DNA of 64,000 bases from Pseudaquabacterium terrae (GTDB lineage: Bacteria > Pseudomonadota > Gammaproteobacteria > Burkholderiales > Burkholderiaceae_C): positions 434,001-498,000 of the forward strand of contig NZ_JABRWJ010000003.1 of NCBI RefSeq assembly GCF_013266755.1, given 5' to 3'. The translations under genes and the position numbers were made by a program. Below, piece by piece: positions 16,165 to 64,000 of this stretch. The notes under the pieces were generated by a model, which was not told the origin of the DNA, ran no database searches, and worked only from the letters and a program-made list of their open reading frames with translations. Numbering within the stretch: the stretch's first letter is position 1; every line of letters begins with the position of its first letter.

Positions 16165-16521
16165 ATGGCAAACAAGCTGCTCGTCCCGTTCAAGTTCAAC
16201 CAACTCGGCGAAGGGCGCGAATCCCGGCCGCCGGCGGACCGCGTGCTCGAAGGCGACATCGTGTGCCGCAACTGGGACGTCGACAGCGCCAAGGACGGCG
16301 CCGTTCGCGCAGGCGTGTGGCAGTCGAGTCCCGGCCTCAACCGCTCCATCAAGGGCGAGACCTGGGAGTTCTGCCTGATCCTGTCCGGCCTGGTCGAGAT
16401 CACGGAGGATGGCTGCGAGCCCGTGCGCTACAAGGCCGGCGACTGCTTCATCATGAAGCCCGGCTACATCGGCACCTGGCGTACCATCGAAACGGTGCGC
16501 AAGGTGTGGATCATGGCCTGA
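16165..16521 (+). CDS. Cupin-domain protein (EutQ/ureidoglycine hydrolase-like), stop codon formed at rearrangement junction
   Basis: A 118-residue single-domain cupin. GETWEFCLILSGLVEITEDG is cupin motif 1-like and YKAGDCFIMKPGYIGTWRT is motif 2, typical of the DUF861 group. ATG 16165 is preferred over 16129 because AGGA lies 7-8 bases upstream. The last bases of its stop codon (GA of TGA) already belong to the direct repeat that starts at 16520, so the native C-terminus may have been replaced when the segment was joined. It is transcribed away from the HAD-kinase-aminotransferase operon. Substrate unknown. Confidence 0.72.
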   Translation: MANKLLVPFKFNQLGEGRESRPPADRVLEGDIVCRNWDVDSAKDGAVRAGVWQSSPGLNRSIKGETWEFCLILSGLVEITEDGCEPVRYKAGDCFIMKPGYIGTWRTIETVRKVWIMA

Positions 16522-16591
16522 AGGCTCGGTGCACGGCCTGGACGACTACCTGCAGCTGAAATACGTCTGCCAGGGGCAACTCGGCGCGTGA
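16520..16591 (+). pseudogene. 3' fragment of aldehyde dehydrogenase
   Basis: Twenty-three codons plus TGA read [20 protein letters not shown] and then LGA, the same C-terminal tail as the gene at 1-119. Nothing upstream is aldehyde dehydrogenase; a cupin gene is joined directly to it. It is what remains of a gene that once preceded the acyl-CoA ligase, convergent with it. Confidence 0.8.
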
Positions 16592-16605
16592 ATCCCGGCC
16601 GCGCA
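16520..16605 (+). repeat. Direct repeat, right copy
   Basis: Counterpart of 48-132. It begins exactly at the cupin stop codon and includes the last 24 codons of an aldehyde dehydrogenase plus the first half of the hairpin after it. Differences from the left copy are 5 of 72 bases in the coding part and a one-base indel after it. Confidence 0.85.
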
Positions 16606-16612
16606 CGCGGCC
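16597..16612. terminator. GC-rich hairpin between convergent ends
   Basis: GGCCGC, GCAC, GCGGCC forms a 6-bp stem six bases before the ligase stop codon. It is followed by TCTTCTC on the plus strand. It would have ended the original aldehyde dehydrogenase transcript and perhaps the ligase operon. In the left repeat copy the match stops after the first arm. Confidence 0.45.
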
Positions 16613-16617
16613 TCTTC

Positions 16618-18222: not shown

Positions 18223-18244
18223 GGCCACGGTGTCGGGTCTCGGG

Positions 18245-19060
18245 TCAGGTCTCGGTCTTCGGCGTCCAGCCCTCGGGCAGCGCACCGGTGTAGCGCAGCT
18301 CGCGCGTGGCCTGGTAGGACAGCGCGAAGCCGATCGGCTGGGCCAGCTCTTCGGTGAGATGGCCGATCAGCCCGGCGGTGCGCGCGAGGATTGGCACACC
18401 GCGCAGGGCGTCCAGCGGAAAGCCGACATCGAGCAGCACCGCCGGGATCGCCGCCGAGACGTTCAGGCGCAGCTCGCGGCCGGTGATGGCGGGCAGCACC
18501 TGCTCGACGCTCTCGGCAATCGCCCGGAAGCGGCCGGCGGTGCCGGCTTCGGCGGCCACTTCGAACAGACGCGCGACACGCGGATCGCGCGCCTTGTGCA
18601 GCGGATGGCCATAACCGGGCACGGCCTGGCCGGCGGCCCGCAGCTCGCGCACCACGACTTCAGCCGCTGCATCGAGCGCCAGCGCACGCTCATTTGCCAG
18701 CTTGTCGATGCGCGCGAACATCCGCCCTGCCGTCTCCGACGCACCGAGGATCACCGAACCGCAGCCCAGGATGCCGGCCGCCACGGCGCCCTGCAGCGCA
18801 TCCGGCGCGGCGGCCAGCGTCATGCGGCTGGCCTGCACGCTGGGGACAAGCCCATGCTCGGCGATGGCCACCAGCGTGGCGTCGAGCACGCGGCTCGCGG
18901 CGGCATCCGGCCGCCGGCCGGTGATCAGCAGGAAGAAGTAATCGACGAAGCCGAGCTTGCCGATCAGGTCGCGGCACAGGTTCTCGCCGCGCACGACGAT
19001 GGTCTCGTCGTCCGAGGTGCAGATGGCCGATTCGGGAATCGTGGCCTTGCCGATCTTCAT
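18245..19060 (-). CDS. Citrate synthase-family protein (citryl-CoA lyase-like)
   Basis: A 271-residue protein, much shorter than citrate synthase (~430) but matching the compact citryl-CoA lyase/citrate-synthase-like group. VPGYGHPLHKARDPR carries the conserved active-site His, and residues around AAIPAVLLDVGFP and the RTAGLIGHLTEE end are typical of the fold. It would cleave or form a C-C bond between a CoA thioester and a 2-oxo acid. ATG 19060 has GAGGA upstream. It lies between the dioxygenase and the CoA ligase, suggesting it handles the CoA-activated ring-cleavage product. Confidence 0.8.
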   Translation of the reverse strand: MKIGKATIPESAICTSDDETIVVRGENLCRDLIGKLGFVDYFFLLITGRRPDAAASRVLDATLVAIAEHGLVPSVQASRMTLAAAPDALQGAVAAGILGCGSVILGASETAGRMFARIDKLANERALALDAAAEVVVRELRAAGQAVPGYGHPLHKARDPRVARLFEVAAEAGTAGRFRAIAESVEQVLPAITGRELRLNVSAAIPAVLLDVGFPLDALRGVPILARTAGLIGHLTEELAQPIGFALSYQATRELRYTGALPEGWTPKTET

Positions 19061-19077
19061 GATGGAGGGTCCTCGTG

Positions 19078-19974
19078 TCACGCCGCCGGGGCGAGGTGGA
19101 AGTCGAAGCGCGCGCTGTGGTACGGGCGGTCCATCGCGCGGCCATCGGGTGCCGTTCCCGGCGCGTGCTTTTCGAAGGGCACGATCAGGCTGTTGCGCAC
19201 GCCGAACACGACGTCGGAGTCGAGGAACGGGCTGTCGGTCGGAAAGAGGTGCGTCGTGACCGGCACATACCCCTCGGCGTAGACCATCGCGTGGATGTGC
19301 CCGGGCCGATTCGGGTGCCGCCCCATGAGCCGCAGCATGTCGCCCACCGGGCCGTCCTGCGGCACGGGGTAGAAGGTGGGCTTGATCGACCAGAAGTGGT
19401 AGCGGCCCGCTGCGTCGGTATGAAAGCGCGCGCGCAGGCGCTTGCCGGCCTCGCCTTCGATCTGCATGTCGTAGACGCCCTCGCCGTCACCGGACCAGAT
19501 GTCCAGGCAGCAGTTCGCGATGGGCCGGCCTCGCGTGTCGCTCACGGTGCCGCTGTAGAAGGCCGGCTCGCCGGGCATGCCGGCGCCGATGTCTGCGCCC
19601 AGCGGCAGCACCGGCGAGCCCTCCCAGTAGAACGGCCCCTGCACGGTGGCCTCGGTCGGCATCGCGCTGGCCTCGCGATCGGCCAGCGCCTTCGCCGAAC
19701 GGCGCGCCTGTTCGAGCCCGACCACGACCATCGAGACGCCCAGCGTGTCCGACAGCAGGATGAACTCCTGCCGCTGCGCGGTGCAGGCTTGGCCGGTGCG
19801 GGTCAGGAACTGCAGCGCCGCCATCCATTCGGCGGGCTGCAGGTCAACCTCCTTCACCAGCGCGTGCAGGTGTTGCACCACTGCCGTCATGACCTGCTTG
19901 TAGCGCGGGTCGGTGCAGCCTTCCAGCGTGCGCAGCACGGCGGCGGTGACGTCGGTGATCTGCTTGTCTTGCAT
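19078..19974 (-). CDS. Intradiol ring-cleavage dioxygenase (hydroxyquinol/catechol 1,2-dioxygenase-like)
   Basis: A 298-residue non-haem Fe(III) enzyme that opens a catechol-type ring between the two hydroxyls. The N-terminal dimerisation helices come first (about residues 1-100). The catalytic core shows GPFYWEGSP, LDIWSGDGEGVYD and FYPVPQDGPVG (tyrosine ligands), then PGHIHAMV and TTHLFP (histidine ligands), the complete Tyr2-His2 set. Length and the EGVYD spacing fit hydroxyquinol 1,2-dioxygenases. It is in an aromatic-acid-like operon with a LIV-type transporter, MetE-like protein and CoA-related enzymes. Confidence 0.88.
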   Translation of the reverse strand: MQDKQITDVTAAVLRTLEGCTDPRYKQVMTAVVQHLHALVKEVDLQPAEWMAALQFLTRTGQACTAQRQEFILLSDTLGVSMVVVGLEQARRSAKALADREASAMPTEATVQGPFYWEGSPVLPLGADIGAGMPGEPAFYSGTVSDTRGRPIANCCLDIWSGDGEGVYDMQIEGEAGKRLRARFHTDAAGRYHFWSIKPTFYPVPQDGPVGDMLRLMGRHPNRPGHIHAMVYAEGYVPVTTHLFPTDSPFLDSDVVFGVRNSLIVPFEKHAPGTAPDGRAMDRPYHSARFDFHLAPAA

Positions 19975-20010
19975 CGTCGTCTCACGTGGTTGGGGTTGAC
20001 CGGCGCGCCT

Positions 20011-21036
20011 TCAGCCGCCATGGCGGCTGCGCAGCACCTGCGCGGCCGCCACCATCGCGGCCAGCTTTCCGGCCGCCGTGGCGCGCGGGATGTACTTCAT
20101 GCCGCAGTCTGGCGCGAGGATCACGTTCTCGGCCGCGACATAGGGCAGCGCGCGCTCGATGCGGGCGACGATCGTGTCCACCGATTCGACGGCAGGGTCC
20201 GCCAGGTCGAGGCAGCCGACCATGATCTTCTTGCCGGCCAGCGGCAGCAGCGCACTGCAGTCGAGGTGCGACTGCGCGGTCTCGATCGACACCTGCCGGC
20301 AGCTGCACAGCGCCAGTTCGGACAGGAACGAATAACCGCTGGGGCGCTCGTGGATGATGGCCGCGTAGCCGAAGCAGATGTGCACGGCCGTCGTGCCGGT
20401 GATGCCCTCGAGCGCGCGGTTCAGCGCGGCCAGGCCGTAGCGCCGCGCCTTCTCGGGCCGTGCCTGCATGTAGGGCTCGTCGATCTGCACCACATCGGCC
20501 CCGGCGGCGAAGAGGTCGCGGATCTCGGCATTGACGGCCGCCGCGTAGTCCATCGCGGCCTCTTCCTCGCTGTCGTAGAAGTCGTTCTGCGCCTGCTGCA
20601 GCATCGTGAACGGGCCCGGCACGGTGATCTTGACCAGGCGGCGGGTGTGCGCGCGCAGGAACTTCAGGTCCTCGACCTCCACCGCATGGCGGCGGCGGAT
20701 CGGTCCGACGATGCGCGGCACCGGATTGGGGTGGCCCGAGCGGTCCAGCGCGGTCCCGGGGTTGTCGAGGTCGATGCCGTCGAGCGCGGTCGCGAAGCGG
20801 TTCGAATAACTCTCGCGCCGGATCTCGCCGTCACTCACGATGTCCAGGCCCGCTGTTTCCTGCGCGCGGATGGCGATCAGCGTGGCGTCTTCCTGCGCCT
20901 GCTCGAGGTACTGCGGCGGAATGCGCCAGAGCTCGCGCGCACGCACCCGCGGCGGAAAGCGGCCGGCGAGTTTCTCGCGGTCGATCAACCAGTCCGGCTG
21001 CGGGAAACTGCCGACGATGGTGGTGGGGAACAGCAT
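20011..21036 (-). CDS. MetE C-domain-like zinc thiol alkyltransferase
   Basis: A 341-residue protein equivalent to the C-terminal catalytic half of cobalamin-independent methionine synthase. It starts TTIVGSFPQP and has VSDGEIRRESYSNRF, VQIDEPYMQ and the zinc ligands His and Cys in VHICFGYA plus Cys in APDCGMKY. Free-standing proteins of this kind include methyltransferases and epoxyalkane:coenzyme M transferases. In this operon, beside a ring-cleaving dioxygenase, it might demethylate a methoxylated aromatic or conjugate an intermediate with a thiol. That is inference. True methionine synthesis is unlikely without the N-terminal half. Confidence 0.82.
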   Translation of the reverse strand: MLFPTTIVGSFPQPDWLIDREKLAGRFPPRVRARELWRIPPQYLEQAQEDATLIAIRAQETAGLDIVSDGEIRRESYSNRFATALDGIDLDNPGTALDRSGHPNPVPRIVGPIRRRHAVEVEDLKFLRAHTRRLVKITVPGPFTMLQQAQNDFYDSEEEAAMDYAAAVNAEIRDLFAAGADVVQIDEPYMQARPEKARRYGLAALNRALEGITGTTAVHICFGYAAIIHERPSGYSFLSELALCSCRQVSIETAQSHLDCSALLPLAGKKIMVGCLDLADPAVESVDTIVARIERALPYVAAENVILAPDCGMKYIPRATAAGKLAAMVAAAQVLRSRHGG

Positions 21037-52342: not shown

Positions 52343-54499
52343 TCAGGGGCCGGCCGGCTGCGGCCGGTCGGTCTCGGGCGCGCCCCGGCGCAGCAGCTGC
52401 TCGAAGACCGGCACCGGCACCGGCCGGCAGAACAGGAAGCCCTGCGCAACGCCGCAGCCATGGGCGCGCAGGAACGCCGCCTGCCCCTCGGTCTCGACGC
52501 CTTCGGCGACGACGCGCAGGCCGAGCGCCCGGGCGATCGCGAAGAAGGCCTTGACCAGCTCGGCCTGGCGCGCTTCGGCCTCGATGTCGCGCACGAAGAG
52601 GCGGTCGATCTTCAGGCAGTGCACGTCGAACTTGCTGAGGTAGCCGAGCGCCGAGTAGCCGGTGCCGAAGTCGTCGATCGCGATCTCCAGGCCGAGCTCG
52701 CTCAGCCCGTGCAGCGCGCGGCGCACGCTGTCGCTGTCCTCGAGCAGCAGGCCCTCGGTGACCTCCATCGCCAGCCACTGCGCCCGGCAGTCGTGGCGCT
52801 GCAGCGCCTCGCGCACCGCGGCAACGAGGTCGTCACGCAGGAACTGGCGCGTCGACACATTGAAGGCGATGCGCAGCGGCTCGGCGCGGCCTTCGTTCCA
52901 GCGCCGCGCGGCCTGCGCCACCTGGTCGATGACCCAGCGGCCGATCGGCACGATCAGCCCGGTGTCTTCGGCGATGGCGATGAAGCGGTCCGGCGCCAGC
53001 AGGCCGAGCTCGGGATGGCGCCAGCGCAGCAGCGCCTCGGCGCCGACGATGCGCCGCTCATCGTCCAGCGCCACCAGCGGCTGGTAGTGCAGCTCCAGCC
53101 CCGCGCCCGCCTGCGCGCCGCGCAGCGCCTGCTCCAGCGCCATGCGCTCGTGGGCGCGCTCGCTGAATTCGCTGCGGTAGAAGGCATACCCACTGTGGCC
53201 GCCGCGCTTGGCGTGGTACATCGCCGCGTCGGCATGCGCCATCAGGTCCTCGAGCTGCTCGCCGTCGGCCGGGAACAGCGCGATGCCGATGCTCGCACTG
53301 ACGACCACCTGCCGGCCGCCGAGCTGCAGCGGCGCGAACAGCGCGCGTTCGATCTTCTCGGCGATCGATGCCATGTCCATGTCGTGCTCGAGGTTCGTCG
53401 CGACGATCGCGAACTCGTCGCCGCCCAGCCGCACCAGCAGGTCGTAGCCGCGCGTGCATCCGGCGACCCGCTGAGCCACCTCACGCAGCAGCTGGTCGCC
53501 GGCCGGATGTCCGAGCGTGTCGTTGACGTCCTTGAAGCGGTCGATGTCGAGGATCATCACGCCCAGCCGCCGGTGGTGACGCCGCGCCTCGGCGATCAGC
53601 CCCGGCGCGTAGTCGTACAGCGCCTGCCGGTTGTGCAGCCGGGTCAGCGGATCGGACAAGGCCAGCGCGCGGATGCGTTCACGCTGCTCGACGCCCTGCG
53701 TGATGTCGCGGCCCAGCGCCAGCGCACCGTCGATGCAGCCGTCCTCGGTCTTCACCGCGACGATGCGCACGTGATGGGTCTCGGTGCCGCCGCTGGCGCC
53801 GGGCGCGGGCACCATCAGCTCCATCTCGGCCGGCTCGCCGTCGGCCAGCACCTGGCGCAGCACGCGCTCGTATTCCACCATCGCCGTCTCGTGCCCGGGC
53901 AGCGCGCTGTCGCAGGGCGTGCGGCCGACGAACCACTCGGCCGGGCGGCCCAGCCGCGCCAGCACCGCGGGGTTGGCGTAGCGCGTGCGGGCCTCGGCGT
54001 CGTAACGCATGATGAAGTCGGGCGAGGTTTCCGCCAGCGAGCGGAACTCACGTTCGCGCGTCGCCAGCGCCTGCTCGGCGCGCTTGCGCGCGGTGATGTC
54101 GCGGGCGATCGTCAGCAGGCTCGCAGGGCGGCCCTGCGCATCGCGCTCGACGGTGATGCGCACGTTGTGCCACAGCATGCGGCCATCGACCGCGCGCCAC
54201 TCGAAGTCCAGCTCCTGCAGCTGGCCGGTCTCGATCGCCAGCCGCATGCGCTGCTCGAGCCGCTGCGCCAGGCTGCCGATGCGCGAGACCTCGCTCAAGC
54301 GCATGCCGAGGTACTGCTCCGGCTTCAGCCCGTTGAGCTCCTCGTAGCGGGGATTGGCGTAGATGCGCCGCAGCTCGAGGTCGTAGCGGACGATGATGTC
54401 CGGTGAATTCTCGAGCACGCTGCCGACGACATCTTCCGCGCTCGGCCGTGGCCGGTCGCCCGCGGGCCGTACATCTACTTCATTCGGCCCGTGATCCAT
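52343..54499 (-). CDS. PAS-PAS-GGDEF-EAL cyclic-di-GMP enzyme
   Basis: A 718-residue protein without evident membrane segments. Two PAS domains (~25-145, ~150-285) precede a GGDEF domain (RLGGDEFAIV intact; RGYD five residues before it is a canonical inhibitory I-site) and an EAL domain (GAEALLRW, NVSTRQF, MEVTEGLL, IDDFGTGYSAL, AEGVET), all catalytic motifs present. Both synthesis and hydrolysis of c-di-GMP are possible. ATG 54499 was chosen; 20 codons upstream (54559) would add a CxxC-containing stretch. It lies 109 bp from the kinase gene, same strand. Confidence 0.92.
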   Translation of the reverse strand: MDHGPNEVDVRPAGDRPRPSAEDVVGSVLENSPDIIVRYDLELRRIYANPRYEELNGLKPEQYLGMRLSEVSRIGSLAQRLEQRMRLAIETGQLQELDFEWRAVDGRMLWHNVRITVERDAQGRPASLLTIARDITARKRAEQALATREREFRSLAETSPDFIMRYDAEARTRYANPAVLARLGRPAEWFVGRTPCDSALPGHETAMVEYERVLRQVLADGEPAEMELMVPAPGASGGTETHHVRIVAVKTEDGCIDGALALGRDITQGVEQRERIRALALSDPLTRLHNRQALYDYAPGLIAEARRHHRRLGVMILDIDRFKDVNDTLGHPAGDQLLREVAQRVAGCTRGYDLLVRLGGDEFAIVATNLEHDMDMASIAEKIERALFAPLQLGGRQVVVSASIGIALFPADGEQLEDLMAHADAAMYHAKRGGHSGYAFYRSEFSERAHERMALEQALRGAQAGAGLELHYQPLVALDDERRIVGAEALLRWRHPELGLLAPDRFIAIAEDTGLIVPIGRWVIDQVAQAARRWNEGRAEPLRIAFNVSTRQFLRDDLVAAVREALQRHDCRAQWLAMEVTEGLLLEDSDSVRRALHGLSELGLEIAIDDFGTGYSALGYLSKFDVHCLKIDRLFVRDIEAEARQAELVKAFFAIARALGLRVVAEGVETEGQAAFLRAHGCGVAQGFLFCRPVPVPVFEQLLRRGAPETDRPQPAGP

Positions 54500-54617
54500 G
54501 CATTTGCGCCCCGACAACGGGCGTAGGGTATCGCACCGGGCGCAGCGCCAGGCCGGCACTTGCGCGACGTTTCCGCGATGTATGACCGCTGCGGGGGCAG
54601 TTCGTCAGCCGACGATG

Positions 54618-55808
54618 TCAGCCAACCACCATGGGCACCTCCGTCGCCGGCGGCGTATTGCGGCTGCGGCCGCAGCGCACCAGGCCATCGATCATCACCA
54701 TGCCGACGCCGGGAATGTCGCCGAGCTGCACGCTGTCGAGCAGCGTCCGGCCGGCGGTGTGCTGCGCGCGGTCGAGGAACACGAAATCGGCGTCGCGGCC
54801 GGCTTCGATCAGGCCGCAGTTGAGCTTGCGGATGCGCGCGGTGTTGCCGGTGGCAAAGCAGAAGACCAATTCAGCCGGGATATTGCCGAGGCTCGCCAGC
54901 AGCGAGATCAAACGCAGGATGCCGAGCGGCTGCACGCCGGAGCCGGCCGGTCCGTCGGTGCCGAGGATCACGCGGTGCGGGCACTTCAGCTGCATCGCGG
55001 CCTGCGCGGCGGCAATCGCGATCTTCTCGTTGCCGTTGTGCACGATCTCGATCGCCCGCGCGCTCTTCTCGCACAGCGTGCAGACATCGCGCTCGGGCAG
55101 CGCGGTGTGGCCGCCGTTGATGTGGCCGATGACATCGGCGTCGGCTTCGAGCACCACGTCCTTGTCGATCAGGCCCGAGCCGGGGATCGACGGGCCGCCG
55201 GTGTGGATCGTGCTCTGGATGCCGTGCTGGCGCGCCCAGGCGACCATCTGCTGCGCTTCGTAGCCGGCCTTCACCGAGCCCAGGCCCACTTCGCCGAGCA
55301 GCGTCACGCCGGCCGCGGCCAGGTCGGCGAAGTCCTGCTCGACCATGCCCTTCTCGATCACCGGCGCGCCGGCCAGCACCTTGACGCCGCCGGGGCGGAA
55401 ATTGTCGAAGGCACGCTGCGCGGTGATCGCCAGCGCCTTCAGCCCGACGATGTCCTTCGGCCGCCCGGGCAGGTGCACCTCGCCGGCCGAGACCATGGTC
55501 GTGACGCCGCCGTTCATCGTCGAATCGATCCAGCCGAGCTGGTTCTGGCGCGGCGTCCAGTCGCCGAAGACCGGGTGCACGTGGCTGTCGATCAGGCCGG
55601 GGCTCAACGCAGTGCCACGCGCATCGATCAGCGTCTTCGGCTGCGCGGTGTCGAGCTCACGCTCGCGGCCGACCGCGACGATCAGACCGTCGTCGACCAC
55701 GATGCAATCGGCATCGAGGATCGGCCGGTCGATGTCGCCCGACAGCAGCAGGCCGATGTTGCGGATCACGACCTTGCCGGACTTGGCGCCGGCAGCGGCT
55801 TCAGCCAT
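54618..55808 (-). CDS. Enamidase-like amidohydrolase
   Basis: A 396-residue metal-dependent amidohydrolase. Metal ligands are visible: DSHVHP (HxH), the region GEVGLGSVKAG, His in TIHTGG, His in HINGGHTA and Asp in LGTDGPAG. The overall pattern matches enamidase of nicotinate fermentation, which hydrolyses 6-oxo-1,4,5,6-tetrahydronicotinate to 2-formylglutarate and ammonia. It is coupled to the TetR gene (8-bp overlap) and divergent from the 6-hydroxynicotinate-reductase-like gene, whose product would be its substrate in that pathway. Confidence 0.82.
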   Translation of the reverse strand: MAEAAAGAKSGKVVIRNIGLLLSGDIDRPILDADCIVVDDGLIVAVGRERELDTAQPKTLIDARGTALSPGLIDSHVHPVFGDWTPRQNQLGWIDSTMNGGVTTMVSAGEVHLPGRPKDIVGLKALAITAQRAFDNFRPGGVKVLAGAPVIEKGMVEQDFADLAAAGVTLLGEVGLGSVKAGYEAQQMVAWARQHGIQSTIHTGGPSIPGSGLIDKDVVLEADADVIGHINGGHTALPERDVCTLCEKSARAIEIVHNGNEKIAIAAAQAAMQLKCPHRVILGTDGPAGSGVQPLGILRLISLLASLGNIPAELVFCFATGNTARIRKLNCGLIEAGRDADFVFLDRAQHTAGRTLLDSVQLGDIPGVGMVMIDGLVRCGRSRNTPPATEVPMVVG

Positions 55809-56508
55809 GGTGGTTGTTCCTGTTCGTGGGCCGGGATGCGGGTGCCGACGGCGCCACCGTGCGCTCGACGGTCTCGATCACGCGCGCCTCCCACTGCGAA
55901 AGCGCCTCCGGCGCTTCGAGGTCTTCGCCGAGGAAGGCCGACAGCGTGAAGCGATTGGACAGGTAGAAGTAGCACAGCGCAGCGATCGTCAGGTAGAGAT
56001 CGCGTGCCGACAGGTCGGCGCGAAACAGCCCCTGTGCCGCGCCCTGCTGCAACACGCGCTCGAGCATGCCGACGGCCGGCAACGAGTATTCGCGCGCCTT
56101 GGCAGACTTCGCGATGTGCTTGCCGCGGTGCAGGTTCTCGGTGTTCAGCAGCGTGATGAACTCCGGGTGCTTCAGGTAATAGGACCACATGAAGCGCACC
56201 ACCGCGCGCAAGGCCTCGGCGGGCGGCGTTTGATCGAGCTGCAGTTCCGATTCGGCTTCGTTGAAGCGGCGGTAGATCTCCTCCAGCGCGGCGATGTACA
56301 GCGCCTCCTTGCTGCCGAAGTAGTAGTAGATCATCCGGTCGTAGGACTTCGCGGCCTTGCTGATCTGCTCGACGCGGCCGCCGGCAAAGCCGTGCTTGGC
56401 GAAGATCTTGATCGCCGCGCGCAAGATGCTCTCGCGCGTGGCCTGCGCGGCGAGCTCGCGCACGCCGGGCTTGCGTTCGATGATTTCGGTGTTGCTGGCA
56501 GGCGCCAT
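55801..56508 (-). CDS. TetR-family regulator of the N-heterocycle cluster
   Basis: A 235-residue regulator. The N-terminal HTH is at ~20-65 (ILRAAIKIFAKHGFAGGRVEQISKAA, then YYYFGSKEALY), with a C-terminal ligand-binding domain of the TetR_C/RutR-like type. ATG 56508 starts it, 38 bp from a perfect dyad (56546-56563) in the divergent promoter to the reductase-like gene. The amidohydrolase start overlaps its stop (ATGGCTGA). It probably represses both directions until the heterocycle or a metabolite binds. Confidence 0.88.
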   Translation of the reverse strand: MAPASNTEIIERKPGVRELAAQATRESILRAAIKIFAKHGFAGGRVEQISKAAKSYDRMIYYYFGSKEALYIAALEEIYRRFNEAESELQLDQTPPAEALRAVVRFMWSYYLKHPEFITLLNTENLHRGKHIAKSAKAREYSLPAVGMLERVLQQGAAQGLFRADLSARDLYLTIAALCYFYLSNRFTLSAFLGEDLEAPEALSQWEARVIETVERTVAPSAPASRPTNRNNHHG

Positions 56509-56545
56509 TCGAATGGGTGTCGGGTCGGCACCGACTTCTCAGTTC

Positions 56546-56563
56546 ATGTAGTGGATGCTACAT
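56546..56563. promoter_or_regulatory. TetR operator candidate
   Basis: ATGTAG, TGGATG, CTACAT is a perfect 6-bp dyad in the 89-bp gap between the TetR gene and the reductase-like gene, 34 bp before the latter's ATG. The position suits repression of both divergent promoters. Confidence 0.6.
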
Positions 56564-56597
56564 TGGCCCATCGAGCCGGACAAGGGCGCTTCTCCCG

Positions 56598-58214
56598 ATG
56601 ACTGAGCACAGCAAGACCGATGGCCTGCCGGCGCTCGATGCGCCGCTGTCGCCGCAAGTGCTCGAACGCTCGCGCCCGCGCAACGAGCGCATGGCCGGCG
56701 ACAAGATCGAGTGCAATGCCTGCCCGGTGCTGTGCCAGATCAGCGACGGCAAGAGCGGCGCCTGCGACCGTTATGCCAATCACCAGGGCACCCTGATCCG
56801 CGTCGACCCGGTGCTGCTGCTGCGGCGGACCATCGAAGCCGGCGAACGGCCGCTGGTGGCCTTCGAAGGCCGCGTGCAGCCGAGCGCCGAAGCGCCCGCC
56901 GCCGCCAACGACAAGGCCTGGAGCGGCGACCTGCTGCATGCCAACGAAGTCTTCGTCACCGGCGTCGGCAGCTCCACCACCTACCCCGACTACAAGCCCG
57001 CGCCCTTCATCGTCGGCTCGCAGGTCGACGGCGTCGACGTGATCACCGTCGTCACCGAAGGCATCTTCAGCTACTGCAGCTTCAAGCTGAAGATCGACAC
57101 CGATCGTTTCCTCGGCCCCGAGCAGGCCAACGTGCGCTGCCGCGGCGAGGTCGTCGGCCATGTCACGACGATGGAGTACGGCTCGCAGATGCTGTCGCTC
57201 GGCGGCGTGCACCACCTGACCGGCGGCAGCAAGAAGGAAGGCCGCGTGACGGTCGAGGTGATGGAGGCGCTCGGCAACCGCCTGCCGGTGGAACTGCACA
57301 TCGACGGCGGCTCGCAGGTCATCGTGCAGGCCGGCCGCGCGCCGATCGTCAACGGCGTCGAGGAGCAGCGCATGCGCGTCGGCTGCGGCTCGGCGACGAT
57401 CGGCATCTTCGCCAAGCAGCTCTACGGCCAGGCCGACGAGGTGATCGTCGTCGACGACCACATCACCGGCGTGCTGACCGAGCACCAGGCCGGCCGCTGC
57501 CTCGACATGCGGCGCTCGGGCGTCAAGATGCGCGGCCGCAAGTCGACGCCGGGGCGCTGGTTCCAGGTCGCCAGCCCCGGCACCGGCTGGGGTGGCACCG
57601 ACCTGACCGAGCCGCTGTCGATCATCGAAGGCTGGGACCCCGAAGTCACCTGGCCGGGGCTGCGCCTGCTGATGACCTCGACCACCGGCGAGCATGCCGC
57701 GTGGTACGTGCTCGACGAGGCGCTGCAGCCCATCGAACAAGAGATGCCCGCGGCCGTGCGCGCGGTCGTCGAGCGCATCGGCGAGAACTGCGAGCCCTCG
57801 CTGTGCTCGGTGCTGTTCCTCGGCGGCGCCGGCGGCAGCCTGCGCGCCGGCGTCACCGACAACCCGGTCAAGCTCACCCGCTCGATCAAGCACGCGCTGG
57901 TCAACGTCACCTGCGGCGGCGCGCCGGCCTATGTCTGGCCGGGCGGCGGCATCACCGTGATGGCCGACGTGATGCGCATGCCCGAGCGCAGCTTCGGCAC
58001 CGTGCCGACGCCGGCGATCGTCGCGCCGATCGAGTTCAGCATGCGCCTGGCCGACTACGCCGCGCTCGGCGGCCACCTCGACCACGTGCGGCCGCTGGCC
58101 GAGGTGCTGCAGCACGGCGCCTGGCACAACGACGGCGCGCCGACTGCGCGGCGCTGGGCGCTGGGCTCGACCGACAACCCGTGGCCACTCGGCCGCGGGC
58201 CGATGCTGGGCTAA
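56598..58214 (+). CDS. 6-hydroxynicotinate reductase-like Fe-S flavoprotein
   Basis: A 538-residue protein recognised as the 6-hydroxynicotinate reductase family, known from anaerobic nicotinate fermentation, where it reduces the aromatic ring. The N-terminus has a four-Cys motif, CNACPVLCQISDGKSGAC (Cys39, 42, 46, 56), for an Fe-S cluster; further family segments are VGSSTTYPDYKPAPFIVG, TEGIFSYCSFKLKIDTD, GGVHHLTGG and CGSATIGIF. It is the first plus-strand gene of the cluster, five bases before the UPF0280 gene. An aerobic-type gene setting (porins, dioxygenase nearby) is unusual for this enzyme. The natural substrate may be a related N-heterocycle. Confidence 0.82.
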   Translation: MTEHSKTDGLPALDAPLSPQVLERSRPRNERMAGDKIECNACPVLCQISDGKSGACDRYANHQGTLIRVDPVLLLRRTIEAGERPLVAFEGRVQPSAEAPAAANDKAWSGDLLHANEVFVTGVGSSTTYPDYKPAPFIVGSQVDGVDVITVVTEGIFSYCSFKLKIDTDRFLGPEQANVRCRGEVVGHVTTMEYGSQMLSLGGVHHLTGGSKKEGRVTVEVMEALGNRLPVELHIDGGSQVIVQAGRAPIVNGVEEQRMRVGCGSATIGIFAKQLYGQADEVIVVDDHITGVLTEHQAGRCLDMRRSGVKMRGRKSTPGRWFQVASPGTGWGGTDLTEPLSIIEGWDPEVTWPGLRLLMTSTTGEHAAWYVLDEALQPIEQEMPAAVRAVVERIGENCEPSLCSVLFLGGAGGSLRAGVTDNPVKLTRSIKHALVNVTCGGAPAYVWPGGGITVMADVMRMPERSFGTVPTPAIVAPIEFSMRLADYAALGGHLDHVRPLAEVLQHGAWHNDGAPTARRWALGSTDNPWPLGRGPMLG

Positions 58215-58218
58215 GGCG

Positions 58219-59103
58219 ATGGCCGCGACCCGCCATTCGCTTCCCCACGAGCGCCAGCACTTCCAGCACGGCCCGATCGACGTGATCATCGGCGCCGACG
58301 GCGACGCCGCCGCGGTGCAGGCCGCGCACGACGCGGCCTGGCAACGCTTCGAGACCATCCTCGGCGAGCTGGTCGCCGAGCTGCCGCTGCTGCGCCGGCC
58401 GCTGCGCGGCCCCTGCCCCTTGCGCGGCGGCATCGCGCAGCGCATGTGGCTGGCCTGCCGGCCGCACCACGCCGAATTCATCACGCCGATGGCGGCGGTG
58501 GCCGGGGCGGTCGCGCAGGAGCTGATCGGCTTCTACCACCAGCCCGGCATCCGCCGCGCGTGGGTCAACAACGGCGGCGACATCGCGCTGCACCTGGCGC
58601 CCGGCGAATCATTGCGCGTGGGTCTCTTCGCCGACCTGGCGCGGCTCGATGCCCGCCAGTTGCAGCACGGCCTGGCGCTCGACGGCCGCTTCACGATCGG
58701 CGCGGCGATGCCGGTGCGCGGCATCGCCACCAGCGGCTGGCGCGGCCGCAGCTTCTCGCTCGGCATCGCCGACAGCGTGACCGTGCTCGCACGCAGCGCG
58801 GCCGACGCCGATGCCGCGGCAACGATGATCGCCAATGCGGTCAACGTCGACGACCCGCTGATTCAGCGCGCCCCCGCCAACTCGCTGAAAGACGACAGCG
58901 ACCTGGGCGACATCCCCGTCACCGTCGACGTGCCGCCGCTGCCGCATGCCCGCGTGCTCGAAGCGCTGCGCGCCGGCGCCCATCGCGCCCGCTGCCTGCA
59001 GTCGCGCGGGCTGGTCTGGTCGGCCGCGCTGGTCTGCCAGGGCCGGCTGTCGCGCGTCGATGCCATCGAAACCGAAGCGGCCCTGGCCGAGATCCACCCA
59101 TGA
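58219..59103 (+). CDS. UPF0280 family protein (ApbE superfamily)
   Basis: A 294-residue protein of UPF0280, related to the flavin transferase ApbE. Segments include GPCPLRGGIAQRMWLAC, PMAAVAGAVAQELIGFY, AWVNNGGDIALHL and RGIATSGWRGRSFSLGIADSVTVLA, where NNGGDI and the following TSG equal ApbE flavin-site motifs. ApbE attaches FMN covalently to targets with a D-x-x-S/T-G-A-T motif; the adjacent reductase has DGKSGAC. A maturation role for that reductase is inferred. The ATG follows AAGG, and the end overlaps the next gene (ATGA). Confidence 0.78.
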   Translation: MAATRHSLPHERQHFQHGPIDVIIGADGDAAAVQAAHDAAWQRFETILGELVAELPLLRRPLRGPCPLRGGIAQRMWLACRPHHAEFITPMAAVAGAVAQELIGFYHQPGIRRAWVNNGGDIALHLAPGESLRVGLFADLARLDARQLQHGLALDGRFTIGAAMPVRGIATSGWRGRSFSLGIADSVTVLARSAADADAAATMIANAVNVDDPLIQRAPANSLKDDSDLGDIPVTVDVPPLPHARVLEALRAGAHRARCLQSRGLVWSAALVCQGRLSRVDAIETEAALAEIHP

Positions 59104-59741
59104 TCCAGATCCGACGCGTCCTGACGCATGTCGAGGACATCCACCACGAGTTCGGCCCGCCGGCGACCCGGCCGCTCAAGCGCGGCGCGATCGCCGCGGT
59201 GCTCACGAACCCCTTCGCTGGCCGCTACGAGCCGCAGATCCTGCCGATGATGGAGGCCCTGCAGCCGGTGGGGATCGACATGGCCCAGCGCCTGCTCGCC
59301 GCGATGGCCGTGCCGGCCGAGCACATCGAGGGTTATGGCAAGGGCGCGATCGTCGGCGCCGCCGGCGAGCTCGAGCATGGTGCGCTGTGGCATGTGCCGG
59401 GCGGTTATGCGATGCGCGAGCTGCTGGGCTGGAAGGGCGACGCCAATGCCTATGCCCAGGGCAAGGCAGACAGCAAGACCGGCCAACCCGCCAACGCGCT
59501 GGCCATCGTGCCATCGACGAAGAAGGTCGGCCCACCGGGCGCCGCGCTCGACGTGCCGCTGACCCACATCAACGCCAGCTACGTGCGCAGCCATTTCGAC
59601 GCCATCGAGGTCCGCGTGCCCGGCGCACCGGCGGCCGACGAGATCGTCTTCATCCTCGTGATGAGCGCCGGCGCGCGCGTGCACAGCCGCGTCGGCGGCC
59701 TGAAGGCGAGCGAGATCGCGTTATGGAACGGACTGCGCTGA
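59100..59741 (+). CDS. DUF1185 (amino acid synthesis family) protein, copy 1
   Basis: A 213-residue protein of DUF1185/AA_synth, whose solved member has a chorismate-mutase-like fold and unknown activity. Segments are AAVLTNPFAGRYEPQILP, GYGKGAIVGAAGELEHGALWH, VPLTHINASYVRSHFDAIEVRV and AADEIVFILVMS. It carries an insertion around residues 100-130 (GYAMRELLGWKGDANAY) absent from the next gene. It overlaps the UPF0280 gene by 4 bp. A ring-opening or isomerising role is possible but unproven. Confidence 0.8.
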   Translation: MIQIRRVLTHVEDIHHEFGPPATRPLKRGAIAAVLTNPFAGRYEPQILPMMEALQPVGIDMAQRLLAAMAVPAEHIEGYGKGAIVGAAGELEHGALWHVPGGYAMRELLGWKGDANAYAQGKADSKTGQPANALAIVPSTKKVGPPGAALDVPLTHINASYVRSHFDAIEVRVPGAPAADEIVFILVMSAGARVHSRVGGLKASEIALWNGLR

Positions 59742-59758
59742 GCGCCGAGGACACCCGA

Positions 59759-60343
59759 ATGACTGCCAACATCCGCAAGCTGATCGTGCAGGTCGACGAG
59801 ACCCGCATCGAGATGGGCCGGCCCATCGACCCGCCGACCAGACGTGCCGTCGCGATCGCGGTGATCGCCAATCCGTATGCCGGCCGTTATGCCGAGAACC
59901 TCGACGAGCTGATCGCCATCGGCGAAGAGCTCGGCGGCCTGCTCGGCGACAAGTGCGTGCAGGCGCTGGGCATCACGCCCGCGCAGGCGCAGAGTTATGG
60001 CAAGGCAGCCATCGTCGGCGAGGCCGGCGAGCTCGAGCACGCCGCCGCGATCCTGCACCCGAAGCTCGGCGCGCCTCTGCGCAAGGCCGTCGAGAAAGGC
60101 GCGGCGCTGGTGCCCTCGGCGAAGAAGCTCGGCACGCTCGGCACCGCGATCGACGTACCGCTCGGCCACAAGGATGCGGCCTTCGTGCGCAGCCATTTCG
60201 ACGCGATCGAAGCGCGGGTCGCCGATGCGCCGCGGGCCAACGAGATCGTCGTCGCCGTCGCGGTGACCGCCAGCGGCCGGCCGCTGGCGCGCATCGGCGG
60301 GCTGGAGGTCTCGGAGATCAAGGGCGAGGACGGTCTGCGCTGA
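59759..60343 (+). CDS. DUF1185 (amino acid synthesis family) protein, copy 2
   Basis: A 194-residue paralogue of the preceding gene, sharing AVIANPYAGRY, SYGKAAIVGEAGELEHAAAI, LGTAIDVPLGHKDAAFVRSH and FDAIEARV. Eighteen bases separate the two; the next gene's ATG shares a base with this stop (TGATG). The paired copies suggest a heteromer or two steps on related substrates. Confidence 0.8.
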   Translation: MTANIRKLIVQVDETRIEMGRPIDPPTRRAVAIAVIANPYAGRYAENLDELIAIGEELGGLLGDKCVQALGITPAQAQSYGKAAIVGEAGELEHAAAILHPKLGAPLRKAVEKGAALVPSAKKLGTLGTAIDVPLGHKDAAFVRSHFDAIEARVADAPRANEIVVAVAVTASGRPLARIGGLEVSEIKGEDGLR

Positions 60344-62223
60344 TGGATCTCTCCGGCTTCGTCGTCCAGCTGCTCAACGGCCTGGCCGGCGCTTCATCGC
60401 TGTTCCTCGTCGCCGCGGGCTTGTCGCTGATCTTCGGCGTGACGCGCATCGTCAATTTCGCGCACGGCTCGTTCTACATGCTCGGCATCTACGTGGCGTA
60501 CGCGCTGGCCGAGCGCTTTGGCGCCTGGGGCTTCTGGCCGGCGCTGCTGCTGGCGGCGCTGGCAGTCGGCGCGCTCGGCGCGCTGGTCGAGGTGCTGCTG
60601 CTGCGCCGCATCTACCGCGCGCCCGAACTGTTCCAGCTGCTGGCCACCTTCGCGCTGGTGCTGGTGATCAAGGACGCGGCACTGTGGCTGTGGGGACCTG
60701 AAGACCTGCTCGGGCCGCGCGCACCGGGCTTCAGCGGCTCGGTCGAGATCCTCGGGCGCCGCTTCCCGAGCTACGACCTGCTGCTGATTGCGGTCGGCCC
60801 GATCGTCCTCGGCCTGCTGTGGCTGCTGCTGACGCGCACGCGATTCGGCACGCTGGTGCGCGCCGCGACGCAGGACCGCGAGATGGTCAGCGCGCTCGGC
60901 GTCAACCAGGCGTGGCTGTTCACGGGCGTCTTCACGCTCGGCGCGCTGCTCGCGGGCTTGGGCGGTGCGCTGCAATTGCCGCGCGAGCCCGCAAACCTCG
61001 GGCTGGACCTGGTGACGATCGGCAACGCCTTCGTCGTGGTCGTCGTCGGCGGCATGGGCTCGATCCCCGGCGCCTATGTCGCCGCGCTGCTGATCGCCGA
61101 GATCAACGCGATGTGCGTGGGCTTGGGCACCGTCGACATCTTCGGCATCCCGTTCGCGTTCTCGAAACTCACGCTGGTGGCCGAGTTCCTCGTGATGGCC
61201 GTCGTGCTCGTCGTCCGCCCCTGGGGTCTGATGGGCAAACCGCAGGCACCGAGCCGCCATGCCGGGCCGGTCGAAGCGCCGCTGCAGCCGGCCAATGGCC
61301 TGCTGAAGATCGCCGGCGCGGTGCTGCTGGCCGCGCTGGTGCTGCTGCCGCTCGTGACCAGCGGCTCGCCCTACCTCACGGTGCTGGCGATCGACCTGCT
61401 GACGGCCGCGCTGTTCGCCGCCAGCCTGCACTTCATCATGGGGCCCGCGGGCATGCATTCCTTCGGCCATGCCGCGTATTTCGGCCTCGGCGCTTATGGT
61501 GCGGCGATGCTGGTGCGCTCGCTGTCGCTGCCGATGGAAGTCGCGCTGCTGGCCGCGCCGCTGGCGGCAGCCGCCGGCGCGCTGCTGTTCGGCTGGTTCT
61601 GCGTGCGGCTGTCGGGCGTCTACCTCGCGATGCTGACCTTGGCGTTCGCGCAGATCGTCTGGTCGGTCGTCTTCCAGTGGGACGAGGTCACCGGCGGCAG
61701 CAACGGCCTGACCGGCGTCTGGCCGGCCGAGTGGCTGGCCGACAAGCGCATGTACTACGGCCTGACGCTCGCCTTGGTCGTTATCGCCGTGCTGCTGCTG
61801 CGCCGCATGCTGTTCGCCCCCTTCGGCTACGCGATGCGTGCCGCGCGCGACTCGGTGCTGCGCAGCGACGCGATCGGCATCGACGTCAAGCGCGTGCAAT
61901 GGGTCGCCTTCGTCATCGCCGGCCTCTTCGCCGGCCTGGCCGGCGCGCTGTTCGCGTTCTCCAAGGGCAGCATCTCGCCGGACAGCCTGGGCGTCGCGCG
62001 CTCGGTCGACGGCCTGGTGATGGTGCTGCTCGGCGGCTTGCAGACGCTGTCCGGCCCGCTGGTCGGCGCGGTCACCTTCACCTGGCTGCAGGACACCGTC
62101 GCGCGCAACACCGACTACTGGCGTGCACTGCTCGGCGGCATCGTGCTGCTGCTGGTGCTGGTATTCCCGATGGGCCTGGCCGGCTTCGTCAAGCAGCGCC
62201 TGCAGCGCGCGGAAGAAACCTGA
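60343..62223 (+). CDS. Fused LivH-LivM permease
   Basis: A 626-residue polytopic protein joining two LIV-type permeases. Residues ~1-290 are LivH-like (GLSLIFGVTRIVNFAHGSFYMLG; VVVVGGMGSIPGAYVAALLIAE) and ~320-620 are LivM-like (GMHSFGHAAYFGLGAYGAAML; RAARDSVLRSDAIGIDVKR; VMVLLGGLQTLSGPLVGA). Roughly 16-18 hydrophobic segments. A fused pore subunit needs only one polypeptide plus LivG, LivF and a binding protein; no binding protein gene is in the window. Confidence 0.88.
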   Translation: MDLSGFVVQLLNGLAGASSLFLVAAGLSLIFGVTRIVNFAHGSFYMLGIYVAYALAERFGAWGFWPALLLAALAVGALGALVEVLLLRRIYRAPELFQLLATFALVLVIKDAALWLWGPEDLLGPRAPGFSGSVEILGRRFPSYDLLLIAVGPIVLGLLWLLLTRTRFGTLVRAATQDREMVSALGVNQAWLFTGVFTLGALLAGLGGALQLPREPANLGLDLVTIGNAFVVVVVGGMGSIPGAYVAALLIAEINAMCVGLGTVDIFGIPFAFSKLTLVAEFLVMAVVLVVRPWGLMGKPQAPSRHAGPVEAPLQPANGLLKIAGAVLLAALVLLPLVTSGSPYLTVLAIDLLTAALFAASLHFIMGPAGMHSFGHAAYFGLGAYGAAMLVRSLSLPMEVALLAAPLAAAAGALLFGWFCVRLSGVYLAMLTLAFAQIVWSVVFQWDEVTGGSNGLTGVWPAEWLADKRMYYGLTLALVVIAVLLLRRMLFAPFGYAMRAARDSVLRSDAIGIDVKRVQWVAFVIAGLFAGLAGALFAFSKGSISPDSLGVARSVDGLVMVLLGGLQTLSGPLVGAVTFTWLQDTVARNTDYWRALLGGIVLLLVLVFPMGLAGFVKQRLQRAEET

Positions 62224-62299
62224 TGAGCGCCGCGCGGCCGTTCCGGAGGCGCTCGCTCCCCCTCGGGGGGACGGGCCGCAGGCCCAAGGGGGCGTCATG
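62223..62299 (+). repeat. Dyad-rich intergenic element forming a coupling leader ORF
   Basis: The 73 bp between the fused permease and livG contain CCCCCTCGGGGG and GGGCCGCAGGCCC, two adjacent self-complementary stretches. I recall very similar GC-rich elements as dispersed intergenic repeats in Burkholderiales. It also reads as an open frame of 25 codons (MSAARPFRRRSLPLGG, then TGRRPKGAS) from an ATG overlapping the permease stop to a TGA overlapping the livG ATG, so ribosomes could pass through it to livG. Confidence 0.6.
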
Positions 62300-63082
62300 A
62301 GCGTGCTGCTGCAAGTGCAAGGGCTCACCAAGAGCTTCGGCGGCAACCGCGCCGTCGACGACGTCGGCTTCGAATTGAAGGCCGGCGAGCTGCTGGCGCT
62401 GATCGGCCCGAACGGCGCCGGCAAGTCGACGACCTTCAACATGGTCAACGGCCAACTCCGTGCCGATGCCGGCTCGATCCGGCTCGAGGGCCAGGAGCTC
62501 ACCGGCCTGGCGCCGCGGCGCATCTGGCGCCTGGGCGTCGGCCGCACCTTCCAGATCGCCGAGACCTTCGGCTCGATGACAGTGATCCAGAACGTGCAGC
62601 TCGCGCTGCTGTCGGCCGACCGCAAGGTCTTCTCGTTCTGGCGGTCTGCGGCAGACCATCGGCGCGACGACGCCCTCGCGCTGCTGGCGCAGGTCGGCAT
62701 GGTCCCCCAGGCCGATCGGCCGTGCAGCGTGCTGGCCTATGGCGACATCAAGCGCGTGGAGCTGGCGATCGCGCTGGCGAACCAGCCGAAACTGCTGCTG
62801 ATGGACGAGCCGACCGCCGGCATGGCGCCGAAGGAGCGCAACGAGCTGATGGCGCTGACCAAACAGTTGGTGAAGGACCGTGGCCTCGGCGTGCTGTTCA
62901 CCGAGCACAGCATGGACGTCGTGTTCGCGTATGCCGACCGCCTGATCGTGCTGGCGCGCGGCAAGCTGATCGCCGAAGGCCCGCCGCTGCTCATCCGCGA
63001 TCATCCGAAGGTCCAGGAGGTGTACTTCGGCACCGGCAAGACTTTCGAGAAGAAGGCCGTGGCCGAGGAGATCGTGCGATGA
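62297..63082 (+). CDS. livG: LIV-type ABC transporter ATP-binding protein LivG
   Basis: A 261-residue ATPase. Walker A is GPNGAGKST, the signature is LAYGDIKRVELAIAL (a common variant of LSGGQ in this group) and Walker B is LLLMDEPTAGMAP. GRTFQIAETFGSMTV is typical of LivG. It begins within the TGA of the leader frame and its own stop overlaps livF (ATGA). It drives the fused permease encoded upstream. Confidence 0.9.
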   Translation: MSVLLQVQGLTKSFGGNRAVDDVGFELKAGELLALIGPNGAGKSTTFNMVNGQLRADAGSIRLEGQELTGLAPRRIWRLGVGRTFQIAETFGSMTVIQNVQLALLSADRKVFSFWRSAADHRRDDALALLAQVGMVPQADRPCSVLAYGDIKRVELAIALANQPKLLLMDEPTAGMAPKERNELMALTKQLVKDRGLGVLFTEHSMDVVFAYADRLIVLARGKLIAEGPPLLIRDHPKVQEVYFGTGKTFEKKAVAEEIVR

Positions 63083-63810
63083 ACAACGGCCCGCTGCTGC
63101 AAGCCAAGGCGCTGAACGCCTGGTACGGCGCCGCGCACATCCTGTTCGACGTCGACCTGGAGGTGCGCCGCGGCGAGGTCGTCGCGCTGATGGGCCGCAA
63201 TGGTGCCGGCAAGTCGACGACGCTGAAAGCGCTGATGGGCCTGCTCGAGCGCCAGCGCGGCAGCATCCATTTCCTGGGGCGCGACATCACGGGCGCAGAG
63301 CCGCACCAGATCGCGCGTCTGGGGCTGGGCTACGTGCCCGAAGACCGCCGCATCTTCAGCGACTTGACCGTCACTGAAAACCTCGAGGTCGGCCGTCAGC
63401 CGCCGCGCCACTGGTCCGACGGCAGCGCCGCGCCGTGCTGGACACCGGAGCGCCTGTTCAAGCTCTTCCCCAACTTGGGCGAGATGCCCGACCGCCCCGG
63501 CGGCCGCATGAGCGGCGGCGAGCAGCAGATGCTGACGGTCGCGCGCACGCTGATGGGCAACCCCTACCTGGTGCTGCTCGACGAGCCTTCCGAAGGCGTC
63601 GCGCCGGTGATCGTCGAGCAGATGGCGCAGATGATCGTCGAGCTGAAGAGCCAGGGCGTCAGCATCCTGCTGTCCGAGCAGAACATGCACTTCGCCGAGC
63701 TGGTCTCCGACCGCGCCTACGTGCTGGAGAAGGGCCAGATCCGCTACCAGGCGACGATGGCCGAGCTGGCGCGCAACGAGGACGTGCGCCGCGCTTACCT
63801 CAGTGTCTAG
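63079..63810 (+). CDS. livF: LIV-type ABC transporter ATP-binding protein LivF
   Basis: A 243-residue ATPase with Walker A GRNGAGKST, signature MSGGEQQMLTVART, Walker B LLDEPSEGVAP and the LivF-type ending ARNEDVRRAYLSV. It ends in TAG immediately before the ATG of the molybdenum-hydroxylase subunit gene (no gap), tying the transporter to the catabolic enzymes in one transcript. Confidence 0.9.
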   Translation: MNNGPLLQAKALNAWYGAAHILFDVDLEVRRGEVVALMGRNGAGKSTTLKALMGLLERQRGSIHFLGRDITGAEPHQIARLGLGYVPEDRRIFSDLTVTENLEVGRQPPRHWSDGSAAPCWTPERLFKLFPNLGEMPDRPGGRMSGGEQQMLTVARTLMGNPYLVLLDEPSEGVAPVIVEQMAQMIVELKSQGVSILLSEQNMHFAELVSDRAYVLEKGQIRYQATMAELARNEDVRRAYLSV

Positions 63811-64000
63811 ATGCTGACGCTCGAAGTGAACGGCCAGGCGCACGCACTGTCCGTGCCAGCGGAAGCATCGCTGCTGCAGGTGCTGCGCAACGACCTGCAG
63901 CTCAACGGTCCGAAGTACGGCTGCGGGCTCGGCGAATGCGGCGCCTGCCTGGTGCTGATCGACGGCACGCCGGCGCGCAGCTGCGTGATCCCGGTGGGCG
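63811..64000 (+). CDS. 2Fe-2S subunit of a xanthine dehydrogenase-family hydroxylase (3' end outside window)
   Basis: The first 63 codons. MLTLEVNGQAHALSVPAE is followed by LLQVLRNDLQLNGPKYGCGLGECGACLVLIDG and SCVIPVG, the plant-ferredoxin-like cluster (C-x4-C-x2-C then C) of the small subunit of molybdenum hydroxylases such as nicotinate dehydrogenase and isoquinoline 1-oxidoreductase. It is the next gene after the transporter and would accept electrons from ring hydroxylation of an N-heterocycle. The molybdenum subunits should follow beyond 64000. Confidence 0.9.
   Translation, partial: MLTLEVNGQAHALSVPAEASLLQVLRNDLQLNGPKYGCGLGECGACLVLIDGTPARSCVIPVG

Follow-up and report, generated by a model that had tools for sequence, protein, structure and literature searches.

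In 2012 a cluster for the degradation of nicotinate (vitamin B3), including a transporter and two conserved unknown proteins, was published for Azorhizobium and Bradyrhizobiaceae; strain SG-6C is a nicotinate degrader with a cluster of this kind, and its 6-hydroxynicotinate reductase (Hnr) is 42% identical to Hnr of Eubacterium barkeri (PMC3511419). Ring reduction and hydrolytic ring opening are given for both E. barkeri and Azorhizobium (PMC9304392). Here we describe a locus of the betaproteobacterium Pseudaquabacterium terrae that joins this known class, because a proteobacterial cluster of its kind is already in print (PMC3511419). It lies at the end of a stretch of 64,000 nucleotides, referred to below as the window (contig NZ_JABRWJ010000003.1, positions 434,001 to 498,000; G000:C23:434001-498000 in our own numbering), within a genome of 8.04 Mb. 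The operon very probably encodes a reductive nicotinate pathway of the Azorhizobium/E. barkeri kind, which this betaproteobacterium would use as a respiratory pathway; we assign this reading a probability of about 0.9. The kind of pathway is already known, and what is new by comparison is the proposed linkage of UPF0280, DUF1185 and the oxoprolinase-type hydrolase HyuAB to particular steps.

The two unknown proteins of the published cluster are probably UPF0280 and DUF1185. Set against the cluster of Azorhizobium caulinodans ORS571 and Bradyrhizobiaceae (PMC3511419), likewise a nicotinate degradation cluster of this kind, with a gene content that is deduced, the present locus belongs to a betaproteobacterium and has two DUF1185 genes. 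In P. terrae, livK, an fpr-like gene and a nicotinamidase gene are placed on another contig, beside a second copy of the palindrome, and a TetR gene stands in place of the MarR gene seen in many of the alphaproteobacterial loci. The nicotinate fermentation of E. barkeri, reportedly described by Alhapel in 2006, has a molybdenum (Mo) hydroxylase, enamidase and probably Hnr in common with the present locus, where the hydroxylase differs in being cytochrome-c-linked. In this last respect the locus resembles NicAB of Pseudomonas putida, which combines a small [2Fe-2S] subunit with a Mo subunit fused to cytochrome c. The product of NicAB is oxidized further, however, whereas reduction by Hnr is proposed here.

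Enzymes and operon structure

The enamidase homologue aligns with the enamidase structure 2VUN over residues 11-391 (381 residues), nearly end to end, with an E value of 1.5e-109 and as its best match in the PDB. Hnr matched no family of Pfam or NCBIfam at E 0.01 and no sequence in the PDB at E 1; its name comes from plasmid relatives that are 56-76% identical, many of them annotated as 6-hydroxynicotinate reductase (by annotation only), the nearest so annotated being 76% identical. In an alignment of 109 Hnr rows, 205 positions are identical in at least 98% of ungapped rows, and the N-terminal cysteine motif C-x2-C-P-x2-C-x9-C (residues 39-56) is present in 109 of 109 homologues, presumably resembling the N-terminus of certain radical SAM proteins of the PFL-activase-like kind. 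A weak match to GCV_T_C (aminomethyltransferase barrel) at residues 161-221 recurs in nine of nine Hnr proteins and is possibly a hint at the fold. Relatives of the hydroxylase are annotated nicA/nicB, and its large subunit carries three CxxCH haem motifs (residues 833, 979 and 1108), as well as a GAGE motif at residue 700. An earlier note on this DNA would have taken a lack of Mo-hydroxylase subunits downstream of position 64000, joined to a lack of response to any N-heterocycle, as refuting its reading; the large subunit is there, fused to cytochrome c.

The features of the locus are as follows.

54618..55808, minus strand: enamidase homologue (amidohydrolase; 2VUN match), predicted opener of 1,4,5,6-tetrahydro-6-oxonicotinate
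55801..56508, minus strand: TetR-family regulator (TetR_N, TetR_C_29), overlapping the enamidase gene by 8 bp
56546..56563, no strand: operator-like palindrome ATGTAG-N6-CTACAT in the tetR-hnr gap (exact match)
56598..58214, plus strand: 6-hydroxynicotinate reductase-like protein, Hnr (annotated plasmid relatives; N-terminal C-x2-C-x3-C-x9-C)
58219..59103, plus strand: UPF0280 protein, ApbE fold (NF003322)
59100..59741, plus strand: DUF1185 protein D1 (PF06684; D1 type in the tree)
59759..60343, plus strand: DUF1185 protein D2, the type going with enamidase (PF06684; 2QTP match)
60343..62223, plus strand: fused LivH-LivM permease (BPD_transp_2 in two stretches; UrtB- and UrtC-like halves)
62297..63082, plus strand: LivG ATPase (family match)
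63079..63810, plus strand: LivF ATPase (family match)
63811..64284, plus strand: [2Fe-2S] subunit of the Mo-hydroxylase (Fer2, Fer2_2); the window ends at 64000 and the last 284 bases lie beyond it
64281-67907 in window numbering, plus strand, beyond the window: large subunit of the Mo-hydroxylase, fused to cytochrome c (molybdopterin-binding and cytochrome c domains)

Every gene listed in the earlier note was found at its coordinates as a long, intact frame, and the gene content for uptake, hydroxylation, ring reduction and ring hydrolysis beside a TetR gene is as that note had described it. The plus-strand genes from hnr to the hydroxylase are spaced by -4 to +73 bp and, because of these short gaps, likely form a single operon. 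Its conservation was assessed in the best 80 of at least 575 confirmed relatives, 55 of which are well covered (3.5 kb or more upstream of hnr and 9 kb or more downstream of it). UPF0280, D2 and LivHM are each present in 55 of these 55 loci, enamidase in 54 and TetR in 53. The commonest order, seen in 24, is enamidase, TetR, Fpr, Hnr, UPF0280, D1, D2, LivK, LivHM, LivG, LivF, PncA, FeS, Mo (the last two being the iron-sulfur and Mo subunits of the hydroxylase). The comparison of reductase neighborhoods that the earlier note had recommended reveals a kept order, and the locus is a real, intact and widely conserved operon. The rarity in a betaproteobacterium that the note had implied is not supported: among the best 80 relatives those named are Betaproteobacteria, a few having broader names only.

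A second palindrome and the probable substrate

The earlier note had also advised looking for a binding protein past position 64000. No substrate-binding protein is encoded in the window operon, and a LivK homologue is instead found on another contig (C34:615401-616561), where a protein search matched it at 79% identity to LivK of the related plasmid cluster L142. The genome contains two copies of the palindrome core TGTAG-N6-CTACA, one upstream of hnr and the other at C34:615286-615301, and both extend to ATGTAG-N6-CTACAT. The C34 copy, which was found later than the livK match and independently of it, lies between livK and the divergent fpr-like gene (minus strand), and a nicotinamidase gene (pncA) follows livK. 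The nicotinamidase scores 188 bits against the NF008623 cut-off of 174, matches nicotinamidase 2WT9 with an E value of 1.7e-87 and has an N-terminus that, read by eye, resembles an export signal. The Fpr-like protein carries Pfam domains for FAD and NAD binding, and it shares about 82% identity with the product of an L142 gene beside hnr that is annotated as ferredoxin-NADP reductase. Inside the hnr clusters of the 55 well-covered betaproteobacterial relatives, LivK is encoded in 55, the Fpr-like protein in 51 and nicotinamidase in 36; in another family (f67), with genomes of the HyuAB type, nine loci also contain an in-range relative of nicotinamidase (52-56% identity). The arrangement is most simply explained if the present genome has divided a cluster of this sort and retained the two parts next to palindromes of one type. 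Because nicotinamidase lies behind livK with the same palindrome and is encoded in 36 of 55 relatives' clusters, the substrate is likely nicotinate, obtained from nicotinamide. The pyridine- or related N-heterocyclic acid of the earlier note is thereby kept and narrowed.

The palindrome itself was spotted by eye and then tested, an initial scan of the tetR-hnr gap that needed arms of at least 7 bases having missed this site with its 6-base arms and given nothing. Among relatives, 26 of 80 loci have the core in the 300 bp upstream of hnr, and five further sites occur in the 1.44 Mb read. A looser form, TGTA-N8..10-TACA, is present in 27 of 81 upstream regions (the 80 loci and the window), compared to 0.46 on average and 5 at most in mononucleotide shuffles; the 27 regions are not independent events, since the loci are related.

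Several observations weigh against this interpretation. A control pattern matched in composition is found at three sites on each strand, so that two palindrome copies alone mean little and their position is what counts, and the looser palindrome is missing from 54 of the 81 upstream regions. Nicotinamidase has no in-range copy in 19 of the 55 well-covered loci. The Fpr-like protein scores 158.7 bits, far below the 390-bit cut-off of NF008178 (ferredoxin-NADP reductase), and is called ferredoxin-NADP-reductase-like because its plasmid relative is so annotated. Finally, the nearest PDB match of the Mo domain of the hydroxylase is a cytochrome-c-linked aldehyde dehydrogenase, with nicotinate dehydrogenase 3HRD ranking lower, and the specificity of the hydroxylase cannot be read from its sequence.

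An alternative is that a different pyridine or N-heterocyclic acid is degraded by the operon, with Hnr, enamidase and the hydroxylase being paralogues of shifted specificity. In its favor, the hydroxylase partners vary among loci, being either of the cytochrome-c-fused type or composed of a flavin adenine dinucleotide (FAD) subunit and a fused FeS/Mo protein, and Hnr occurs with two ring-opening systems. The plasmid of Pleomorphomonas sp. SM30 (L138) carries Hnr, UPF0280, DUF1185 and HyuAB-type genes at 13983-20855 with no Mo-hydroxylase found in range, which looks as if only a hydroxylated substrate were used there; this absence would also fit a shifted specificity. These arguments are countered by the nicotinamidase gene downstream of the second palindrome and in the clusters of relatives, by a full-length enamidase homologue whose best structural match is enamidase itself, and by the strong conservation of Hnr, which together render the alternative very unlikely.

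UPF0280 as a proposed partner of Hnr

In a survey of 299 Pseudomonadota genomes, UPF0280 and Hnr have an identical distribution, both being present in the same 26. The UPF0280 protein of the window scores 388.7 bits against the NF003322 cut-off of 290, and it has the fold of ApbE, an FAD:protein FMN (flavin mononucleotide) transferase. It shares with ApbE the serine and aspartate motif positions, S172 (TSG) and D198 (ADAAAT), which are invariant in a 13-row alignment. The catalytic set named for ApbE is Asp-Ser-His (PMC12052999). UPF0280 differs in this regard, as the window protein has no histidine between TSG and VTV; none is present in 88 of 100 measurable rows (a further 8 of the 108 rows were not measurable), and the 12 rows that have one place it at two differing positions. 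The partner differs as well, the ApbE flavinylation target motif D-x-x-[ST]-G-A-[ST] being found in 0 of 109 Hnr sequences.

On the plasmid of Hydrogenophaga sp. BPS33 (L232), UPF0280 occurs at four places (for example, 9917-10849) within IS1071-bounded repeats that also carry Rieske oxygenase genes. This plasmid has no Hnr and is the sole plasmid exception to the UPF0280-Hnr pairing.

The co-occurrence suggests that UPF0280 serves Hnr, and loading of its flavin would most likely be the task. A different explanation, to which we give somewhat less than even odds, is that UPF0280 is unrelated to flavin and, like COG2122 of the DUF39 homocysteine pathway, supports an enzyme linked to ferredoxin in its Fe-S or persulfide chemistry. 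In D. vulgaris, COG2122 is required along with DUF39; the homology of COG2122 to ApbE is said to stop short of the region that binds flavin, and a role involving persulfide has been put forward (PMC5764234). The missing histidine and the missing target motif are in line with this explanation, too. A search of the P. terrae genome with PF01837 (DUF39) gave no match. No description of the UPF0280-Hnr pairing was found in the literature searched, which covered few subscription journals and so does not prove its absence in print.

Predicted ring-opening hydrolases and DUF1185

Among the 26 genomes with Hnr, an enamidase (62-100% identity) is present in 14 and a HyuB relative (65-81%) in 14, two genomes having both and none having neither. 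Presence was counted at an identity of at least 60%, which leaves out of the HyuB count a 41% HyuB in an enamidase genome (G340) and second copies at 43-45% in G213 and G334. Hnr-lacking genomes of the 299 have no enamidase or HyuB at this level; two have an enamidase at 42% and two a HyuB at 43-44%. The 26 plasmids with Hnr divide similarly, 16 having enamidase and the remaining 10 having HyuB at 60% or more. Given that every one of the 26 genomes and 26 plasmids with Hnr has one or the other, the data suggest that enamidase and HyuAB are interchangeable ring openers. Their alternation does not represent one event, since an Hnr tree of 36 rows requires the enamidase label to change at least three times; for the HyuAB label at least five changes are required. 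No description of this alternation was found in the same literature, with the same limit on proof of absence.

Alternatively, HyuAB may not open the ring here, and its presence in Hnr genomes lacking enamidase would reflect shared ancestry or another catabolic task nearby. The label changes on the Hnr tree, and with them the independent switches, are few; a close HyuB (at least 60%) is found on seven plasmids whose own records lack Hnr; and several genomes have the ring opener, HyuB among them, far from hnr or on another contig. The complete coverage of Hnr genomes and plasmids by one hydrolase or the other argues against this alternative, as does the lack of either in the remaining genomes at the 60% level, and we regard it as improbable.

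DUF1185 proteins D1 and D2 score 226 and 243 bits against the PF06684 gathering score of 27, and D2 matches 2QTP with an E value of 2.3e-87. The family is present in 49 of the 299 genomes, comprising 25 of the 26 Hnr genomes and 24 genomes lacking Hnr; the exception, G192, has Hnr and UPF0280 and no DUF1185. In a DUF1185 tree the two types separate, with some long branches poorly placed and an unsettled bootstrap. Pairing was counted over 95 loci longer than 14 kb. D2 accompanies enamidase in 71 of the 71 loci with enamidase in range, most of which are betaproteobacterial relatives of one another. Where HyuAB is in range (11 loci), D1 is present in 10 and D2 in 2, and 13 of the 95 loci have neither ring opener in range. 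Nine plasmids encode a more distant enamidase-like protein (38-46% identity). DUF1185 is adjacent to it in five, and a tblastn check found none within about 6 kb in the other four, one of which (Rhodococcus sp. USK13) has a DUF1185 gene elsewhere on that plasmid, at a distance of about 23 kb. DUF1185 also adjoins the distant enamidase of sample genomes G256 and G291, and G180 and G227 contain a separate D1-D2-enamidase group without a second Hnr. As DUF1185 is often found beside enamidase-like genes even where Hnr is missing, its gene neighborhoods tie it to the ring-opening hydrolase at least as much as to Hnr.

Solved DUF1185 relatives form hexamers with a conserved histidine cluster (PMC2954203). 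HcdD of the coumarin pathway, a DUF1185-family protein called a TgnF homologue, is encoded beside heterocycle catabolism genes; its role there is unproven, attempts to detect its effect having failed (PMC7913881). TgnF (trigonelline) and HcdD (coumarin) belong to the same family as the present proteins, and HcdD also resembles them in its gene neighborhood.

Two further DUF1185 loci were noted. A Thermomicrobium roseum plasmid (L236; 4050-8194), from another phylum, has adjacent genes for a Mo-hydroxylase, DUF1185 and an enamidase-like protein, with no Hnr in range. P. terrae has a third DUF1185 gene of its own (L205; G000:C23:637502-638023), about 140 kb past the end of the window and on a very long branch; it is among the 95 loci and is not an Hnr locus. 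Elsewhere in the operon, the livHM-livG gap (62223-62303) holds an interspersed repeat of about 80 bases, which 12 other places in the genome match at 81-94% identity and which folds no better than its own shuffles (z 0.79). No Rfam family reached its gathering score in 54000-64000. Located 3' of the hydroxylase are a possible PEP-CTERM protein (by eye only) and a DUF1932 dehydrogenase; a query with the latter gave no match listed among the 80 hnr loci.

Proposed pathway and its meaning

From the gene content, gene order, families, palindrome copies and co-occurrence described above, the activities of the proteins, the binding and direction of TetR, and the roles of UPF0280 and DUF1185 may be proposed. 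A nicotinamidase, probably exported and encoded elsewhere beside the same palindrome, would convert nicotinamide to nicotinate, which LivK and the LivHMGF importer would take up. The FeS/Mo hydroxylase would then carry out 6-hydroxylation and pass electrons to its own cytochrome c domains. Hnr, fed by the ferredoxin-NADP-reductase-like protein encoded at the second palindrome, would reduce 6-hydroxynicotinate to tetrahydro-6-oxonicotinate, the ring of which enamidase would open. UPF0280 would serve Hnr, most likely by loading its flavin, DUF1185 would act at or just after ring opening, and TetR would bind the palindrome and repress when no inducer is present.

The earlier note had considered possible use under low oxygen. 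This is contradicted for Azorhizobium, a studied organism with the pathway: the wild type is reported to show no measurable nicotinate catabolism in microaerobic cultures (PMC3357923). Because the hydroxylase is fused to cytochrome c, respiration would be the indicated use in P. terrae.

On a larger scale, gene sets that would support ring-reducing breakdown of nicotinate with a cytochrome-linked hydroxylase are common in betaproteobacteria, and two unrelated hydrolases are proposed for one step, enamidase and HyuAB. Through the comparison, two families of unknown role become parts that can be tested, with UPF0280 tracking Hnr and DUF1185 tracking the ring-opening hydrolase. A bolder and rather doubtful scheme would combine these elements: UPF0280 as a branch of the ApbE fold that, without the usual histidine, installs the flavin of Hnr at a new kind of attachment site; DUF1185 as a helper in hydrolytic ring opening; and ATP-dependent hydrolases of the HyuAB type as an interchangeable substitute for enamidase. 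If this is true, two orphan families would gain a function, and the reductive nicotinate pathway would have a second genetic form. COG2122, a relative of UPF0280, is needed for homocysteine synthesis in Desulfovibrio (PMC5764234), and a role of UPF0280 for Hnr may therefore explain that requirement, too.

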